A stretch of DNA of 22,298 nucleotides from IMG/VR virus record IMGVR_UViG_3300003324_000710, positions 1-22,298 of that record. One strand, 5' to 3'. Below are positions 3,571-12,343 of the stretch, in pieces. Origin of the DNA: a virus. Under the pieces are notes generated by a model. The model made no database searches and was not told the origin of the DNA. It saw only the letters and a program-made list of their open reading frames with translations. Numbering within the stretch: the first letter of the stretch is position 1; each line of letters begins with the position of its first letter. Made by a program: the position numbers and the translations under genes.

Positions 3571-3749
3571 TGACGAAGCGCGGCGTGGCCGTGGACTCGA
3601 TCACGAGCGTAGAAACGCTCGACTTCGACGCGTGGGCGGCACAGTACGCGGGTGCCGTGCTCGCGGCGCACCGCGCAGCCGTGCATCGTTTGGATGATCC
3701 TGCGCCGGCCACCACACCGGCGCGCCGCTCCGACCACGAAGCCGCCTAA
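3570..3749 (+). CDS. small hypothetical protein, 59 residues
   Basis: A short ORF whose ATG overlaps the stop of the ATPase gene (ATGA), the coupling used throughout this window. The product begins MTKRGVAVDSITSVETLDFD and has one amphipathic helix (WAAQYAGAVLAAHRAAVHRL) and a Pro/Arg-rich tail. Third codon positions are almost all G or C. No family recognised. It ends 16 bases before the recombinase start, so it could couple the two genes; the DNA at its 3' end also carries a small inverted repeat (3702-3723). Confidence 0.55.
   Translation: MTKRGVAVDSITSVETLDFDAWAAQYAGAVLAAHRAAVHRLDDPAPATTPARRSDHEAA
3702..3723. repeat. inverted repeat just upstream of the recombinase gene
   Basis: Perfect 7-bp arms GCGCCGG / CCGGCGC separated by 8 bases (CCACCACA), ending 42 bases before the recombinase ATG. 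In DNA this GC-rich such a dyad can arise by chance. It could be a translation-controlling hairpin or part of a recombination site; nothing in the sequence decides. Confidence 0.35.
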
Positions 3750-3765
3750 GAGCCACGGCCCAACG

Positions 3766-5523
3766 ATGCCACCACGCCCCGCCACGCGCCCCGTTCCCGT
3801 CGTCGATCTCGCTGCGATCGATTGCGTCGGGTACATCCGCGTCTCCGATGAATCGCAGGCCGACGAGAAGCGCACGTCGCTCGATGATCAAAGGCAGGCG
3901 ATCGAACGCCGCGCGTCTGAGCTCGGCCGGAACGTGCAGTACTGGTTCGTCGACGCCGGCGCCTCGGGCGGCTCGGAGCACCGGCCAGAGTTTCAATCGC
4001 TCTTGGCCTCGTGCCACGCCGCGCCGCGCCGATCAGGGCCAGGCCACCGGGCCGGCTACGTGATCGTGCTCAATGAGTCGCGCTTCGGGCGATTCGACGA
4101 TCCGGACGACGCCGGCTATTTCCGGGGGATGCTGCGCCGGCTCGGCTGGCAGCTCCGCTACAGCGAGAACGACGTCGTCGAGAACAAGATGCTCAACTTG
4201 CTGCTTCGGTCCGTCACCGCGGCGCAGGCGAGCGAATATCGCGACAATGTGAAGCGAAACGCCCGCCGCGGTGCCAAGGGCACGGCCGAGCAGGGCTACT
4301 GGCAGTCGCAGGCGCCCTACGGCTACCGTCGCGCCGTCGTGTACCCGCCGGGCCGCGAGCGCGTGCTGGAGAACGGCGTCCGGAAAGCGATCGACGAGCG
4401 CGTCTCGCTGACACCCCACGAGGGCGAGGCCGAGATCATTCGCGCGATGTTCCGGCGCTACGCCAAAGGCGCTGATTCGGTGCACAGCTTGGCCGATTGG
4501 CTCACCACGAACGATCGCGATCGGAAGTGGAACTGCGCCATGGTGCGCTACTGCTTGAAGAATCCGGCATATGCGGGCGACGTCGTGCACGGCCGCGTAC
4601 CGTCCGAACTCCGCGTGAACGGGCACCGGCCGACGCGACCCGCCGACGAGTGGTGGATCTGTCGCGACGCGCACCCGGCGATCATCCCGCGCGACTTGTT
4701 CGACGCGGTGCAGTCGCGGCTTTCGGCAAACCGTCGCGCGACCCGCGGCGTGCGATCGGATTGGGTTCTCACGGGCCTCGTGCGCTGCCGCTGCGGCGCG
4801 ACGCTCGCCGGTGGCGGGGGAGGAGGTCGAAGCGGCCGCTCCCCGAGCTACAAGTGTGCGACGCACGGCCAGCACGCCGCAGCGCGATGCGCCTATCGGG
4901 GCTCGGTCGTGAAGTACGCGCTCGAGCGCGCCATCGTCATGGAGATCGCCAAGGTGCTGTCATCGCGCGGCGCCAAGGAGCGACTGGCGAAAGCGCTCGA
5001 CGCGGCCATGACGCGAGAGCGAGAGACGCCTGGCGACCTCCTGGTCGCCGTTGATGCGCGGCTTGCGGCTGTCCAGGAGCGGCGCGATCGGCTCGTGCGC
5101 GCGATCGAAGCGGGCACGCTCTCGCACCTGGATGCGCGCGCCCGGATGGGTGAACTCCGGCAAGAGGAGGCACAGGCCCGTCGCGACCGCGAGCGGCTCA
5201 TCGTCGAGCATGACCGGCGCAACAAGGGCACCGATGAGCGCGAGCAGTTGCTGTCGCTCTTGCTCGATTTCCCTAAAGCCGCGGCGACGCTCGAGGGACC
5301 AGCGCTTCGCGAGTTGCTCCGGCCGTGGATTCGATCTGCGGTCTTCAACACGGACACGAGAGTCCTCACGATGGAAATTCGGCACGTCCCATCCTTGGCG
5401 GTCGCTGCTGGCGCGTCTTTCCCTGTAGCGGATTTGGATAGGCTGGCACCCGAGCCTAAGCAAAAAGGCTACACCGTTCGGCACGCCGTCGTTGGGAAGC
5501 CACGGAAGCGAGGCGCGGCATGA
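3766..5523 (+). CDS. large serine recombinase (probable phage integrase)
   Basis: Predicted 585-residue protein, a typical large serine recombinase size. The N-terminal resolvase-like domain has GYIRVSDES, with S27 the expected nucleophile, then VDAGASGGSEHRPEFQ and the Arg-rich RFGRFD. A recombinase domain follows (AQAPYGYRRA; NPAYAGDVVHGR). A zinc-ribbon has Cys at 341, 343, 364 and 375, and a coiled-coil-like Arg/Glu-rich region lies at about 430-490. These enzymes cut and rejoin attP and attB through a phosphoserine intermediate and need a directionality factor for excision. The ATG at 3766 is preferred because residues before it are out of keeping with the family; the frame is open to 3652. 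Unusually there is almost no non-coding DNA on either side for attP. The next gene overlaps by 4 bases. Confidence 0.93.
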   Translation: MPPRPATRPVPVVDLAAIDCVGYIRVSDESQADEKRTSLDDQRQAIERRASELGRNVQYWFVDAGASGGSEHRPEFQSLLASCHAAPRRSGPGHRAGYVIVLNESRFGRFDDPDDAGYFRGMLRRLGWQLRYSENDVVENKMLNLLLRSVTAAQASEYRDNVKRNARRGAKGTAEQGYWQSQAPYGYRRAVVYPPGRERVLENGVRKAIDERVSLTPHEGEAEIIRAMFRRYAKGADSVHSLADWLTTNDRDRKWNCAMVRYCLKNPAYAGDVVHGRVPSELRVNGHRPTRPADEWWICRDAHPAIIPRDLFDAVQSRLSANRRATRGVRSDWVLTGLVRCRCGATLAGGGGGGRSGRSPSYKCATHGQHAAARCAYRGSVVKYALERAIVMEIAKVLSSRGAKERLAKALDAAMTRERETPGDLLVAVDARLAAVQERRDRLVRAIEAGTLSHLDARARMGELRQEEAQARRDRERLIVEHDRRNKGTDEREQLLSLLLDFPKAAATLEGPALRELLRPWIRSAVFNTDTRVLTMEIRHVPSLAVAAGASFPVADLDRLAPEPKQKGYTVRHAVVGKPRKRGAA

Positions 5524-6250: not shown

Positions 6251-6558
6251 GTCTCGTCTGCCCGCATTGCCATCGCGAGTTCAAGCCCGCGACGGAGCCG
6301 CTCACGGCACGCCAGCTCGCGGTGCTGCGCTGGATCGAGGACTACATCCGAGTGAACGGCGTCGCGCCGACGTTCACCGAGATCGCGACCGGGATGCGCT
6401 ACGCCTCGCTCTCGTCGGTGCACGAGCACCTGATGAACCTCGAGCGGAAGGGCGTGCTCCTGCGCACCTACAACGCCGAGCGCGGCATCACGCTACTCGT
6501 GCGGTCCGACGAGCTCGGGGCGATCGCGCCCGCGAGCGACGGGGAGACCAGCGACTAA
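6247..6558 (+). CDS. LexA-type winged-helix DNA-binding protein lacking the protease domain
   Basis: Predicted 103 residues from GTG 6247 (GTGA overlap). A short N-terminal CPHCHREF could hold zinc with a partner. Residues 19-85 match the LexA DNA-binding domain: LTARQLAVLRWIEDYI, then GVAPTFTEIATGM, then LSSVHEHLMNLERKGVL. LexA itself is about 200 residues with a Ser-Lys autoprotease; none is present, so this cannot be cleaved by the RecA/SOS route. It may bind host LexA boxes or phage operators. Its stop overlaps the stop of the minus-strand repressor (6555-6558), so the two genes are convergent. Fold assignment is confident, target is unknown. Confidence 0.85.
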   Translation: MSLVCPHCHREFKPATEPLTARQLAVLRWIEDYIRVNGVAPTFTEIATGMRYASLSSVHEHLMNLERKGVLLRTYNAERGITLLVRSDELGAIAPASDGETSD

Positions 6559-6773
6559 TGGCCGCGCTTCTTCTTCGCGGGCTCGTACTCGAGCAGGTCG
6601 CCGGGCGTGCACTCGAGCGCCTCGCAGAGCAGCGCGAGTGTCGAGAGGTTGATGCGGTCCGCGGTCTTGAGCTTGTAGATCGCCGACGGCGTCATGCCCA
6701 TGCGCTTCGCGAGCGCGTACCCGGTGAGCTTCCGGGCTTCCATGAGTTCCTCGAGGCGGACGACGATCGGCAT
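6555..6773 (-). CDS. XRE/Cro-C1 family repressor (small)
   Basis: Predicted 72-residue protein made of one helix-turn-helix domain: LEELMEARKLTGYALAKRM, then MTPSAIYKLKTA as recognition-helix region, then INLSTLALLCEALECTPGDLL, ending in a Lys/Arg tail. This matches the short Cro/C1-type XRE proteins. There is no oligomerisation or protease domain, so control must come from dimerisation of the HTH or from partners. It is the only rightmost-arm gene on the minus strand near a divergent promoter pair, which fits a lysogeny repressor or Cro-like switch protein. The start at 6773 lies 6 bases after a candidate -10 box, so the message may be leaderless. Confidence 0.85.
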   Translation of the reverse strand: MPIVVRLEELMEARKLTGYALAKRMGMTPSAIYKLKTADRINLSTLALLCEALECTPGDLLEYEPAKKKRGH

Positions 6774-7101: not shown

Positions 7102-7343
7102 TGCCATCGCCTTATGACCGCCAAGTGCGCGAGACGCTCGCTCGGCTCGGGCTCATCGGGAAGTACGCACCGAACCAGATCGAAGCGTTCATGCGTGTCG
7201 AGCACCCGACACTCGACGGACTCTCGCGCGATCAGTTCACCGGTGAAGTCGCGCTCGCGTGCGAGTGCATCGCGACCATCGGGCCAGATGAAGCGGAGAA
7301 GGTGGCTGAGTCCATGGGCCTCGGCCGGGAGGTGGCACCATGA
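7101..7343 (+). CDS. small hypothetical protein, 80 residues
   Basis: Starts at the ATG of a TGATG overlap at 7101 and ends in an ATGA overlap with the helicase gene. Mostly helical and acidic: YDRQVRETLARLGLIGKYAP, then IEAFMRVEHPTLDGL, then FTGEVALACECIATIGPDEAEKVAESMG. The frame is open far upstream but the earlier part overlaps real genes and looks like shadow sequence. No family recognised. Tight coupling to the helicase gene suggests a replication-related accessory role, by position only. Confidence 0.65.
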   Translation: MPSPYDRQVRETLARLGLIGKYAPNQIEAFMRVEHPTLDGLSRDQFTGEVALACECIATIGPDEAEKVAESMGLGREVAP

Positions 7344-9247
7344 CCGCCGCCGTTGCCATCCAGGGCACACCGACAAGCACCGTGGCTGAGATCATCGAGC
7401 GCGCGGTGCTTACCCTCGCCGGTCGTTGCGACGGCGCGCACACGCTCGACGGTGTCGGCTACAGCCGCTGGGACGCGGGCTGGGGACACGACACCGCGGA
7501 GCGGATTCAACGTGGTGAGCCGATCAATCTCGAGCGCGCACTCCGCGTTGTCTCCAAGTACCGGAAGCAGCTCGAGCGATCTGGCATCGTGCTGCCCGAC
7601 CTCGAGTTGGTCGCGGCCGAGGTTGAGTCACGCCGTGCAGCGCGCGCCGCGGCGGACGCTCGCTCTGGTGCGCCACTCTCGCCGGCGATTACCGGCGTCG
7701 AGGTCTCACGCACGACGGGCGACACGTTGGCGATCCGGTTCCCCTACGATCAGGCGAAAGTCGAGATCGCACGCGGGCTGCCAGGTCGCCGCTGGGACGC
7801 CGCGTCGAAGGCGTGGACAGTGCCGTTCGCTTCGTTGCCGGCAGTGATGGCCGCGTTCCCCGAAGCGGTGCTGACCGGCACGCTCGGTGCCGAGCTTCGG
7901 GCGAAGCAGGAAGCGGAGGACGCGGCCGAGCGTGCGCGCCGTGCGCAGATCGCGGCAGACATCGCGCGGTACGAATCGATCAAGCCGACGCTCTCGCGCA
8001 CCTTGTTCGAGCACCAGGACGTCGGCGTGCGCTGGCTCATCGAGACGCGCTTCGCGATCCTGGCTGACGACATGGGCCTGGGCAAGACGATGCAGGCGCT
8101 CGTAGCCGCACGCGCGCTCGGCCATCGCATCTTCGTCGTGTGTCCCGCTGGACTCCGGGTCAACTGGCTGCGCGAGGCGGAAGCCGTGGGCGCCACGGTC
8201 GAGGTGTTCTCCTGGGCGAAAGTGCCCGAGCCCGTCGGCATCCCGTACACACTCATCGCCGACGAGGCGCACTACGCGCAGAACATGAAGGCCGCGCGCA
8301 CGAAGCGCTTCCTGGCGCTCGCCAAGGAGGCCAAGGCGTGCTTCTGCCTCTCAGGCACGCCGATCAAGAACGGCCGACCGGCCAACCTGTTCCCGCTGCT
8401 CGTGGCCACGCAGCACTCGCTGGGCAAGGACCGGCGCGCGTTCGAGGTTCGCTACTGCAACGCCGGACCGACGCGCTGGAGCCAGTGGGACGTGACCGGC
8501 GCCGCGCACCTGGACGAGCTGCACGGCAGGATCGCTGACGGGTTGCTTCGGCGCATGAAGGACGAGTGCCTCGACCTACCCGAGAAGACGCGCATGACGC
8601 GCACGGCCGAGCTCTCGAGCGAGATGCGCGACCTGTACGAACGGACGCTCCACGAGATGCAGTCGGAGTACCGACGGAAGAAGGAAGCGGGCGAGATCGG
8701 CGAGGCGGACGCGCTTGTACTCATGAACCACCTACGGCACGCCGGCTCGCTCGCGAAGGTGGACACGGCCGTCGAGTTGGGCGAGGAGGTAATCGAGCAG
8801 GGCGGACAGGTTGTGATCTTCACCGCCTTCCTCGATAGCGCAGCGCAGATCGCCGATGCACTCAACGCTGGCCGCATCACCGGAGCCGAGGACGCCGAGC
8901 AGCGCCAGCGCGCGATCGATGCGTTCCAGGCCGGCGAGCGGAAGGCGATCGTCTGCACGCTCGGTGCTGGCAACGTTGGCATCACGCTCACCGCCGCGCA
9001 GACGGTTGTCTTGGTCGATCGGCCGTGGACGCCGGGCGATGCGATTCAAGCGGAAGATCGCCTACACCGCATCGGACAGCGGGGAAGCGTGCTCGCGGTG
9101 TGGCTGCAGGCGAACGAGGCAGACGTCGCGATCGACGAACTCCTCGAGCAGAAGCACGAGCGCATCGAGCTGGTGCTGGCCGGGAAGCGGAAGACGCTCC
9201 GTGGGCTCCGGTCAGTTGGCGACGTGGCCGCGGCGGTGCTCGGATGA
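7340..9247 (+). CDS. SNF2-family DEAH-box DNA helicase/translocase
   Basis: Predicted 635 residues. All key superfamily 2 motifs are present: Walker A DDMGLGKT (residues 243-250), DEAH (308-311), motif III SGTPIKN, motif V GAGNVGITLT with VVLVDRPW, and motif VI QAEDRLHRIGQ (570-580). Before the ATPase, about residues 125-175 (TLAIRFPYDQAK ... WDAASKAWTVPF) resemble the HARP-type domain of SMARCAL1-like annealing helicases. Residues 20-85 carry the pattern CDGAHTLDGVGYSRWD ... YRKQL seen on phage SNF2 proteins. Likely ATP-driven remodelling of replication forks or recombination intermediates on phage DNA. Start is an ATGA overlap. Helicase class certain; exact role inferred. Confidence 0.93.
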   Translation: MTAAVAIQGTPTSTVAEIIERAVLTLAGRCDGAHTLDGVGYSRWDAGWGHDTAERIQRGEPINLERALRVVSKYRKQLERSGIVLPDLELVAAEVESRRAARAAADARSGAPLSPAITGVEVSRTTGDTLAIRFPYDQAKVEIARGLPGRRWDAASKAWTVPFASLPAVMAAFPEAVLTGTLGAELRAKQEAEDAAERARRAQIAADIARYESIKPTLSRTLFEHQDVGVRWLIETRFAILADDMGLGKTMQALVAARALGHRIFVVCPAGLRVNWLREAEAVGATVEVFSWAKVPEPVGIPYTLIADEAHYAQNMKAARTKRFLALAKEAKACFCLSGTPIKNGRPANLFPLLVATQHSLGKDRRAFEVRYCNAGPTRWSQWDVTGAAHLDELHGRIADGLLRRMKDECLDLPEKTRMTRTAELSSEMRDLYERTLHEMQSEYRRKKEAGEIGEADALVLMNHLRHAGSLAKVDTAVELGEEVIEQGGQVVIFTAFLDSAAQIADALNAGRITGAEDAEQRQRAIDAFQAGERKAIVCTLGAGNVGITLTAAQTVVLVDRPWTPGDAIQAEDRLHRIGQRGSVLAVWLQANEADVAIDELLEQKHERIELVLAGKRKTLRGLRSVGDVAAAVLG

Positions 9248-10070: not shown

Positions 10071-10403
10071 ATGGCCGATACGCGAACCGCGGGCAAGCGC
10101 GCGATGGCGTGGTGGCGATGGTGGACCGAGGGGGACCCGCGCCTTGAGACACTGTATCCGCCTCCCGTTGTTCCGCAGCGACACACGATTCCGGCGCGCG
10201 TCCGGATCGAGGTGTTGGTGCGCGACGGTCCATTCTGTCGCCACTGCGGCCAGCGGGTCACGATGCAGACTCTTGAGTTCGACCACTTTCCCGTACCCGT
10301 CATTCGGGGCGGGACGAACGACGCTTCGAACATCGTTGTGGCCTGTCGACGCTGTAACCGATCGCTCAGGGACCATGGGCGGCTGGAGCTAATCGATGGC
10401 TAA
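10071..10403 (+). CDS. HNH endonuclease
   Basis: Predicted 110 residues. Zinc ligands C56-x2-C59 (CRHC) and C92-x2-C95 (CRRC) bracket the beta-beta-alpha metal site: D71-H72 (EFDHFPV) and N87 (TNDASNIVVACRRCN). This is the standard compact HNH layout (RDGPFCRHCG ... DH ... GG ... NIV-AC-RCN). Such enzymes nick or cut DNA with one divalent metal; in phages they act in packaging, homing or host-DNA degradation. Its place beside the initiator rather than the terminase argues against the usual packaging role, without excluding it. It overlaps the next gene by 8 bases. Confidence 0.88.
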   Translation: MADTRTAGKRAMAWWRWWTEGDPRLETLYPPPVVPQRHTIPARVRIEVLVRDGPFCRHCGQRVTMQTLEFDHFPVPVIRGGTNDASNIVVACRRCNRSLRDHGRLELIDG

Positions 10404-11829
10404 CGTGCAGGTCGAGAACGGGCATGTCCGCATTGCGAACGATCTCTACGAGGCGCTGAGCTACGCACCGTTCTCGGCAACGCAGCTCAAGATCCTGCAC
10501 GTGCTCGTCCGGCTGACTTATGGCTGGAAGGGAGGGCGGAGCGTTCGGCTCTCGGTGCCTGACCTCGCCGCACGGTGCGACCTTCGGCCCCTCGGCGGCT
10601 TCCGGCGCGCGCTCGCGGATCTGATCGCCAACGACGTGGTCTTCGAGCTCGACCGACCCACAGGCCGTCGGCCAGCGCTGTACGCGATCAACAAGAACTT
10701 CGAGGAATGGGGCCGGTTCGTGGTCCACCCGACGCGTCTTGAATGTCTCTTCAGCGAGGCGCCGGTCGCGGAAGACAACGTATTCCTTGCGTTCTTGGCG
10801 CGGCGTAGAGTCACCGGGCAGGGTCAGGCTACGGGCGACCACTCGCCGGTTTCGAAGAGCGGTAGCGTACCCCAAGAGGGTCACTCTACACCATATGGTA
10901 GCGTTACCCGCGAGGGTAATGAGACACTTGAGGGGGCGGAACGGTTAACTAACCCTCCTGGAAGCGTAGACTCACCCTCCTGGGTAGGCGTGCTACCCAC
11001 GGGGGTTAGTCATGATGCTCGCAAGCCCAATAACGATGAGACTTTGCAGCGTCGGAAAGCAATAGAAATACAAGAAAGCCAAACTACAACAGCAACAGCA
11101 ATAGCTCCTGCGGCGAGTGCTGCGCAGGCCAGTTCGTCGAACAGCGCCAATAGCACCGTCGCGAGTCCCGAACGCGACTACGCCATCGGGCTCACCACCG
11201 CGCTCAACCAGGGCATCACCGAACACTGGGGCGAGCAGCCCAACCCCGTCGTCTACGCCACCGCTCTGCAGGTCGCCAGCGAGCTGAGAGCCATGGGTGT
11301 CGACCTGGGACTGGCCCGCGCCGCCATCGTCGATTGGTGTCGATCGAGCCGGAAGAGCGAGCCGCCGAAGACGGTCTCGTACCTCCGGGCCGTGATCGTC
11401 GAGGCGCACCGCGCCGCCGAGCAGCGGGCGTTCAACGCCGCGGATCCTGGTGTGAAGGTGTCGTCCACGAACGGTGATCGGGGTGGATCCGTCCGCCCGA
11501 TCGCGTCGCTCGTGGCCGTCGATGCCGACCGGGAGAAGCGGGAGCGCGCGCTCCGTGAGCGGTACGAGCAGCGCCGGCGCGAAGCAGGCTCGCGATGGGC
11601 CAGCGACCCGGCGAACGCCGAAGCCTATCGGGCCATCGTCGCCAAGGCGAACGAGCACTACGCGGGGTTCCTCGAGCGTGCTTTCGCGCAGCGCGCGCGC
11701 GACATCGAGGTGTCGCAAGGCTGCGCGGAGCGCTCGGGCTTCCCCGACTTCGAGACCTGGCGCGCCGAGCACGAGCACGACCCGCCCGACGCACGGCAGT
11801 CGTCCGACGACCTTCGCCAACCAGCCTGA
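10396..11829 (+). CDS. phage replication initiator, lambda O-type N-terminal domain
   Basis: Predicted 477 residues. Residues 7-120 match the phage replication protein O family: NGHVRIANDLYEAL, FSATQLKILHVLVRLTYGW (T41-Y42-G43-W44), then a winged helix LSVPDLAARCDLRPLGGFRRALADLI and a hydrophobic strand. A low-complexity linker (about 145-255, Gly/Ser/Thr/Asn/Ala-rich) is encoded by DNA with clustered dyads and an A-rich tract. The C-terminal part is helical and charged, with WASDPANAEAYRAIVAKANEHYAGFLERAF. In lambda, O binds iterons inside its own gene and recruits the host helicase through a loader; the same layout is inferred here. No loader gene is obvious, so the C-terminus may do that. 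Confidence 0.85.
   Translation: MANVQVENGHVRIANDLYEALSYAPFSATQLKILHVLVRLTYGWKGGRSVRLSVPDLAARCDLRPLGGFRRALADLIANDVVFELDRPTGRRPALYAINKNFEEWGRFVVHPTRLECLFSEAPVAEDNVFLAFLARRRVTGQGQATGDHSPVSKSGSVPQEGHSTPYGSVTREGNETLEGAERLTNPPGSVDSPSWVGVLPTGVSHDARKPNNDETLQRRKAIEIQESQTTTATAIAPAASAAQASSSNSANSTVASPERDYAIGLTTALNQGITEHWGEQPNPVVYATALQVASELRAMGVDLGLARAAIVDWCRSSRKSEPPKTVSYLRAVIVEAHRAAEQRAFNAADPGVKVSSTNGDRGGSVRPIASLVAVDADREKRERALRERYEQRRREAGSRWASDPANAEAYRAIVAKANEHYAGFLERAFAQRARDIEVSQGCAERSGFPDFETWRAEHEHDPPDARQSSDDLRQPA
10861..11008. repeat. iteron-like cluster of GGGTA dyads inside the initiator gene
   Basis: Inverted repeats sharing the half-site GGTA(A/G)/TACC are packed here: GGTA-GCG-TACC (10861-10871), GGTA-GCGT-TACC (10897-10908), TTACCC-GCGA-GGGTAA (10904-10919), GGTTA-AC-TAACC (10943-10954) and GGGTAG-GCGTG-CTACCC (10982-10998). 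GGTAGCGT recurs exactly at 10861 and 10897, 36 bases apart. ACCCTCCTGG recurs exactly at 10952 and 10974, 22 bases apart. The encoded peptide is low complexity, so the DNA rather than the protein appears constrained. Confidence 0.75.
11028..11104. other. A-rich segment next to the dyad cluster (candidate unwinding region)
   Basis: About 59% A+T over 11031-11100 by hand count, the most AT-rich stretch of this gene in an otherwise GC-rich window; A predominates on the plus strand and 11061-11070 is 9/10 A+T. It follows the dyad cluster immediately, the order seen at the lambda origin (iterons, then AT-rich duplex-unwinding DNA). Confidence 0.6.
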
Positions 11830-11878: not shown

Positions 11879-12343
11879 ATGAGCACCCCAGCCGACGTGA
11901 CACCAGCCGCCATCCGCACCGAGCCCCGCCTCGACGTGCAGACCTTCCCGTCCGGACAGCCGTACCAACGCCGCGAACGCGCGACGGATCCCGACGCCAT
12001 CCTCTGGCTCCGGCTCGATGGCCAACTCACGAGCGACAACCGGCAGCAGTTGAAGCTGCGCATCCTGGACGAACTCGCCGACGGCCGGCGCGACGTCGTG
12101 CTCGACTTCGGCAGTTGCGGCTACGTCGACTCCTCGGGGTTGGGCGTCCTGCTCTCGATCACGAAGCGGATCCGCGACGCCGAGGGCCAGCTCGTGCTGG
12201 TCGGGTTGAACGATGATCTGCGCGCGCTGTTCACGATGACGCGCATGGCGCCCTTGTTCACGTTCGCGGACGACAACCTCGGCGCGATCGCACTACTCGC
12301 GCGTCCGTCGTCCCCATCCCCCGAGCGGAGCGAGAAACCGTGA
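11879..12343 (+). CDS. STAS-domain protein, anti-sigma-factor-antagonist-like
   Basis: Predicted 154 residues. After a disordered-looking 40-residue N-terminus, residues 40-140 follow the SpoIIAA/RsbV-type STAS pattern: AILWLRLDGQLTSDNRQQLK, RRDVVLDFGSCGYVDSSGLGVLL (D84-S85-S86-G87, with the conserved phosphorylatable Ser present), then GQLVLVGLNDDLRALFTMTRMAPLF. In bacteria these proteins bind an anti-sigma kinase and free a sigma factor, depending on Ser phosphorylation. No anti-sigma kinase or sigma factor is encoded in the window, so the partner would be a host protein. The gene sits within the replication operon. Start is ATG 11879 with no clear SD; an internal start would not affect the domain. 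Confidence 0.82.
   Translation: MSTPADVTPAAIRTEPRLDVQTFPSGQPYQRRERATDPDAILWLRLDGQLTSDNRQQLKLRILDELADGRRDVVLDFGSCGYVDSSGLGVLLSITKRIRDAEGQLVLVGLNDDLRALFTMTRMAPLFTFADDNLGAIALLARPSSPSPERSEKP

Follow-up and report, generated by a model that had tools for sequence, protein, structure and literature searches.

Replication origins of the lambda type, which lie within the gene for the initiator protein O, have long been known. Lambdoid iterons are all inverted repeats, and those of lambda are bound by O dimers (PMC7466680); unwinding in lambda requires at least two iterons and the A+T-rich tract next to them (PMC7466680, citing Dodson 1986 and Wickner 1987). The O genes of the Stx phages P27 and 933W carry more than four iterons with an A+T-rich tract alongside (PMC7466680), as does the locus described here; unlike it, both phages are closely related to lambda and have O and P, and dimeric O and its binding are experimental results (PMC7466680).

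The DNA analysed (the window, 22.3 kb in full) forms the start of a 38.5-kb, GC-rich virus record with a temperate-phage layout. Its O gene and that of lambda both encode an O-family N-terminal domain and carry several iterons of inverted-repeat form in the linker, with an A-rich tract after them; the iteron spacing is near 20 bp in both. The half-sites differ (TTACC(C) in a 16-bp dyad, against TCCC-N9-GGGA in lambda), as does the distance from the N-terminal domain to the first strong iteron (about 157 bp, against 4 bp); unlike lambda, the window belongs to a GC-rich genome with no recognised P gene, and the C-terminal region of its O is unrelated. The locus is very probably an origin of the lambda type, set within a distantly related O gene, and as such an ordinary example of a well-known arrangement.

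Coordinates of all features are collected in Table 1. Read from its gene layout (integrase, repressor, terminases), the phage is temperate, and by the same layout the Cro/C1-type repressor region is a candidate control point for transcription across the origin. The 8-bp overlap of the HNH and O genes suggests translational coupling. Directly 3′ of O lies a STAS-domain gene (11879-12343), surprising for a phage replication region; a RuvC-like resolvase and the terminases are also encoded, listed after O in the window layout. Relatives of the SNF2-type helicase, 64-68% identical, were located on four viral contigs (L093-L095 and L097), on whose fragments the O gene was not seen.

Table 1. Features of the window, with positions counted from its first letter.
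Feature	Position	Strand	Remarks
Serine integrase	3652-5523		
Cro/C1-type repressor	6555..6773	-	HTH_26 match; divergent from early genes including O
SNF2-type (SNF2-like) helicase gene	7340-9247		
Small HNH protein gene	10071-10403		3′ end overlaps the start of O by 8 bp
O-type replication initiator gene	10396..11829	+	477 aa; Phage_rep_O (PF04492); PHROGs O-like/DnaD-like
Outlying weak dyad TCACCGGGCAGGGTCA	10811..10826	.	Palindromic-matrix search; doubtful member
Iteron 1 TACCCCAAGAGGGTCA	10868..10883	.	Palindromic-matrix search; CCC-N4-GGG
Iteron 2 CTACACCATATGGTAG	10886..10901	.	Palindromic-matrix search; 18 bp centre-to-centre to each neighbour
Iteron 3 TTACCCGCGAGGGTAA	10904..10919	.	Fixed-gap and matrix searches; most symmetrical copy
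Iteron 4 TAACCCTCCTGGAAGC	10950..10965	.	Single good arm; direct repeat D2; not scored as full dyad
Iteron 5 TCACCCTCCTGGGTAG	10972..10987	.	Fixed-gap and palindromic-matrix searches
Iteron 6 CTACCCACGGGGGTTA	10993..11008	.	Fixed-gap and palindromic-matrix searches
A+T-rich tract, putative duplex-unwinding element	11029..11103	+	61% A+T; encodes about residues 212-236
Predicted four-helix domain of O, about residues 258-349	11158..11451	+	Model pLDDT 85

The O protein was assigned to its family with the PF04492 profile, for which a score of 46.4 bits was obtained against a curated cut-off of 28.7, with O residues 4-105 aligned to positions 3-95 of the 95-position profile, so that the domain is covered. 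In the structure model, a winged-helix N-terminal domain (about residues 8-108; pLDDT mostly >85 over residues 11-110) is followed by a disordered linker and a helical C-terminal region; helix 66-78 of this model is likely the DNA-reading helix. The best viral fold match was a protein with the lambda O N-terminal domain, and the list of PDB matches was headed by winged helices. Among these, the N-terminal domains of plasmid initiators (PDB 4pql, 4pt7 and 5kbj) were aligned over O residues 1-125 with Z 8.4-9.0, but with an rmsd >5 Å and Z values that unrelated winged helices equalled, so that no membership is claimed. The four-helix domain is, from the model, a candidate partner-contact domain; the structure search gave it no fold match above background, and the scores for a DnaD-like (Z 4.5) or lambda P-DnaB (Z 5.5) assignment were not meaningful. 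A PDB sequence search with O returned no match, no close relative was obtained by tblastn in phages, by protein search in viral contigs or by an exact pattern search for the O motif GHVRIAND, and a search of genome contigs yielded only two O genes, both distant.

The dyads fall in the linker coding sequence. Residues 130-211, which they encode, had a pLDDT <50, and GSV occurs three times among Gly-Ser-Val/Pro repeats. The two exact direct repeats reported in the first-pass annotation were recovered as given: GGTAGCGT, with copies at 10861 and 10897 (36 apart), and ACCCTCCTGG, with copies at 10952 and 10974 (22 apart). Longer imperfect direct-repeat families were also present (D3, and D2, which includes the copy at 10950). 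The five GGTA/TACC dyads claimed are likewise all present (10861-10871, 10891-10900 (ACCATATGGT), 10897-10908, 10943-10954 and 10983-10997), but their gaps are unequal, and the register with a constant gap is T-N-ACC-N6-GGT-N-A, with ACCC-N4-GGGT in the strong copies. Most GGTA...TACC dyads come from adjacent iterons, or the flanks of these, facing one another, so that the right cluster had been identified in the wrong register.

In the constant-gap register the linker holds five full palindromic iterons and one half copy, with uneven centre spacings of 18, 18, 46, 22 and 21; they are more degenerate than in most related O genes. The arrangement thus has the repeated, inverted-repeat iterons after the N-terminal domain of O that mark a lambda-type origin, and also its adjoining tract, as the A+T-rich tract begins 20 bp past the iterons. 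That tract had been proposed as the A+T-richest stretch of the gene; it proved to be the A+T-richest 75 bp of the gene, of the window and of the 38.5-kb record. The cumulative GC-skew check suggested earlier gave an extremum at 11738, but with a sign opposite to the usual one, and was therefore set aside.

Departure of the dyads from chance was assessed with a fixed-gap search of all half-sites of 3-5 bases at all gaps of 2-12 against a dinucleotide background; simply counting dyads, with no background model, was of no use, since self-overlapping GCGC runs dominate this GC-rich genome. Across the whole 22.3-kb window, ACCC-N4-GGGT ranked first (3 copies; CCC-N4-GGG, 4 copies), and its three copies in the 38.5-kb record all lie within the O linker. 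When the O gene was shuffled 400 times among synonymous codons, the score of this dyad was equalled in 2 cases (p about 0.005). The palindromic-matrix search gave six T-N-ACC-N6-GGT-N-A sites (all those in Table 1 except iteron 4), a score matched by none of 200 shuffles.

For the wider family, O-like genes were gathered by alignment and reduced to 54 distinct ones, which together with lambda and the window made 56; each was subjected to the same fixed-gap statistic with 100 synonymous shuffles. Lambda served as positive control, and TCCC-N9-GGGA was recovered at its annotated iterons. Significant palindromic clusters (p 0.05 or less) were found in 40 of the 56 genes, where about three were expected by chance; the last dyad lay 0-250 bp past the N-terminal domain in 38 of these 40, against 29% predicted from length. 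In 46 of the 56 genes, the A-richest 60 bp started within 250 bp past that domain. Judged from these sequences, palindromic linker iterons are the norm in the O family. The view that palindromic iterons are specific to this phage was thus not upheld, lambdoid iterons being inverted repeats (PMC7466680). The sites themselves vary by phage (GTACC-N5-GGTAC, TTACC-N6-GGTAA, GTTGG-N7-CCAAC, TGTCT-N8-AGACA and others). Of the 37 O genes with strong motifs, roughly a dozen had TACC-type half-sites, and these were clustered on the N-terminal-domain tree (6 changes against 10.3 shuffled, 1/500), in a test for which the label of the window was assigned manually and in which the window stands on a long branch; by this comparison, site class is a trait that tracks initiator ancestry among O genes.

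Several groups within the survey showed features of their own. In six O genes (L152, L024, L031, L037, L040 and L057) the first iteron is placed some 60 bp upstream of the point where the N-terminal domain ends, in beta-wing codons, so that one binding site overlaps the folded domain. Six short O genes (L007, L043, L055, L058, L068 and L082) had no significant palindromic linker cluster, and a DnaB-type helicase gene adjoins O of L007; the origin of this group may, from sequence, lie elsewhere. On seven contigs (L160, L172, L175, L190, L201, L226 and L229) the iterons are 24 bp long (encoding TTPKNGEG) and number from about two to eight or more, within O genes that are near-identical, with a nearly constant N-terminal domain; as read from these genes, iteron copy number is fast-changing.

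When 2.9 million viral contigs were scanned for pairs of closely placed copies of the dyad found in the window, 53 stretches were obtained. Among them is L152, in which the N-terminal domain of O shares only 30% identity with its counterpart in the window. The L152 dyads (TTACCC-N4-GGGTAA or near variants) lie 8-50 bp past that domain, followed by an A-rich tract. Half-site and gap are identical to the window's and the linker position is the same; unlike the window, the L152 stretch has 45% GC and nearly perfect iterons, one of them inside N-terminal-domain codons. With TTACC-type half-sites also in several other O genes, the half-site had been wrongly taken as peculiar to this phage. The flipped half-site control (CCCA-N4-TGGG pairs) was not negative, as O genes were found in 15 of 80 stretches, mostly from one group of near-identical phages, plus L214. 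Since the flipped half-site also matches O genes, the scan supports a general rule, namely a tendency of such dyads, where closely paired, to sit in O linkers, and not a special status of the window's half-site.

On the PF04492 membership, the dyad statistics and the O-gene survey, region 10868-11103 is highly likely to be the replication origin of this phage, of the lambda type, as the first-pass annotation had proposed in placing an origin of lambda architecture in an O-type initiator gene. That the dyads are a by-product of a repeat-prone, low-complexity linker and of codon usage, with no DNA reader, would suit the disorder and the recurrent GSV of this peptide, as disordered linkers tolerate repeat expansion; yet shuffles that keep both peptide and codon usage rarely yield such a dyad cluster, and across the O family it is palindromic repeats, beyond direct ones, that recur at the linker, which leaves this explanation very little probability.

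An action of the dyads in the transcript or for another protein (attenuation hairpins, an operator or O autoregulation) is considered just as improbable. RNA of the dyad region folds better than shuffled sequence (z -2.5), and iteron 3 would form a hairpin with a GCGA loop, but any palindrome folds as RNA, the loops of the other copies are unrelated, and the place past the DNA-binding domain of O and before the A+T-rich tract is the origin layout of the family. Least probable is a relic origin, with replication of the phage from elsewhere or a decayed prophage: the degeneracy of the iterons and the absence of a recognised helicase or loader would fit it, whereas the reading frames of O, terminase, integrase and repressor are intact.

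For the lambda-type origin, the following course of initiation is envisaged. The winged-helix N-terminal domain of O would bind each 16-bp dyad as a dimer, several O dimers would wrap the DNA, the adjacent A+T-rich tract would then open, and a replicative helicase, either of the host or an unrecognised phage protein, would be loaded via the C-terminal part of O. By analogy with lambda, iterons 5 and 6, 21 bp apart and next to the tract, would be the essential pair. The O gene can carry such sites because the linker peptide is free to vary. The 38.5-kb record gave no match to PF06992, PF01695, PF03796 or PF07261 (lambda P, DnaC/IstB, DnaB and DnaB_2 types), and an O-P module, with a helicase loader or helicase gene beside O, was accordingly not found in the whole record with these four profiles; a partner may have been missed because the record is incomplete or the partner divergent. 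In a phage lacking any P, DnaC or DnaB relative, O might itself load the helicase of the host, using a helical C-terminal domain that differs from the one in lambda, and would then be initiator and loader in one; this is a tentative and rather unlikely proposal.

For this one phage, the likely start of replication is indicated, together with the putative site read by its initiator. In most of the O genes tested, palindromic linker iterons can be called from sequence alone, and the half-site can be given gene by gene; many such initiator-site pairs could serve to derive and test a rule of recognition.
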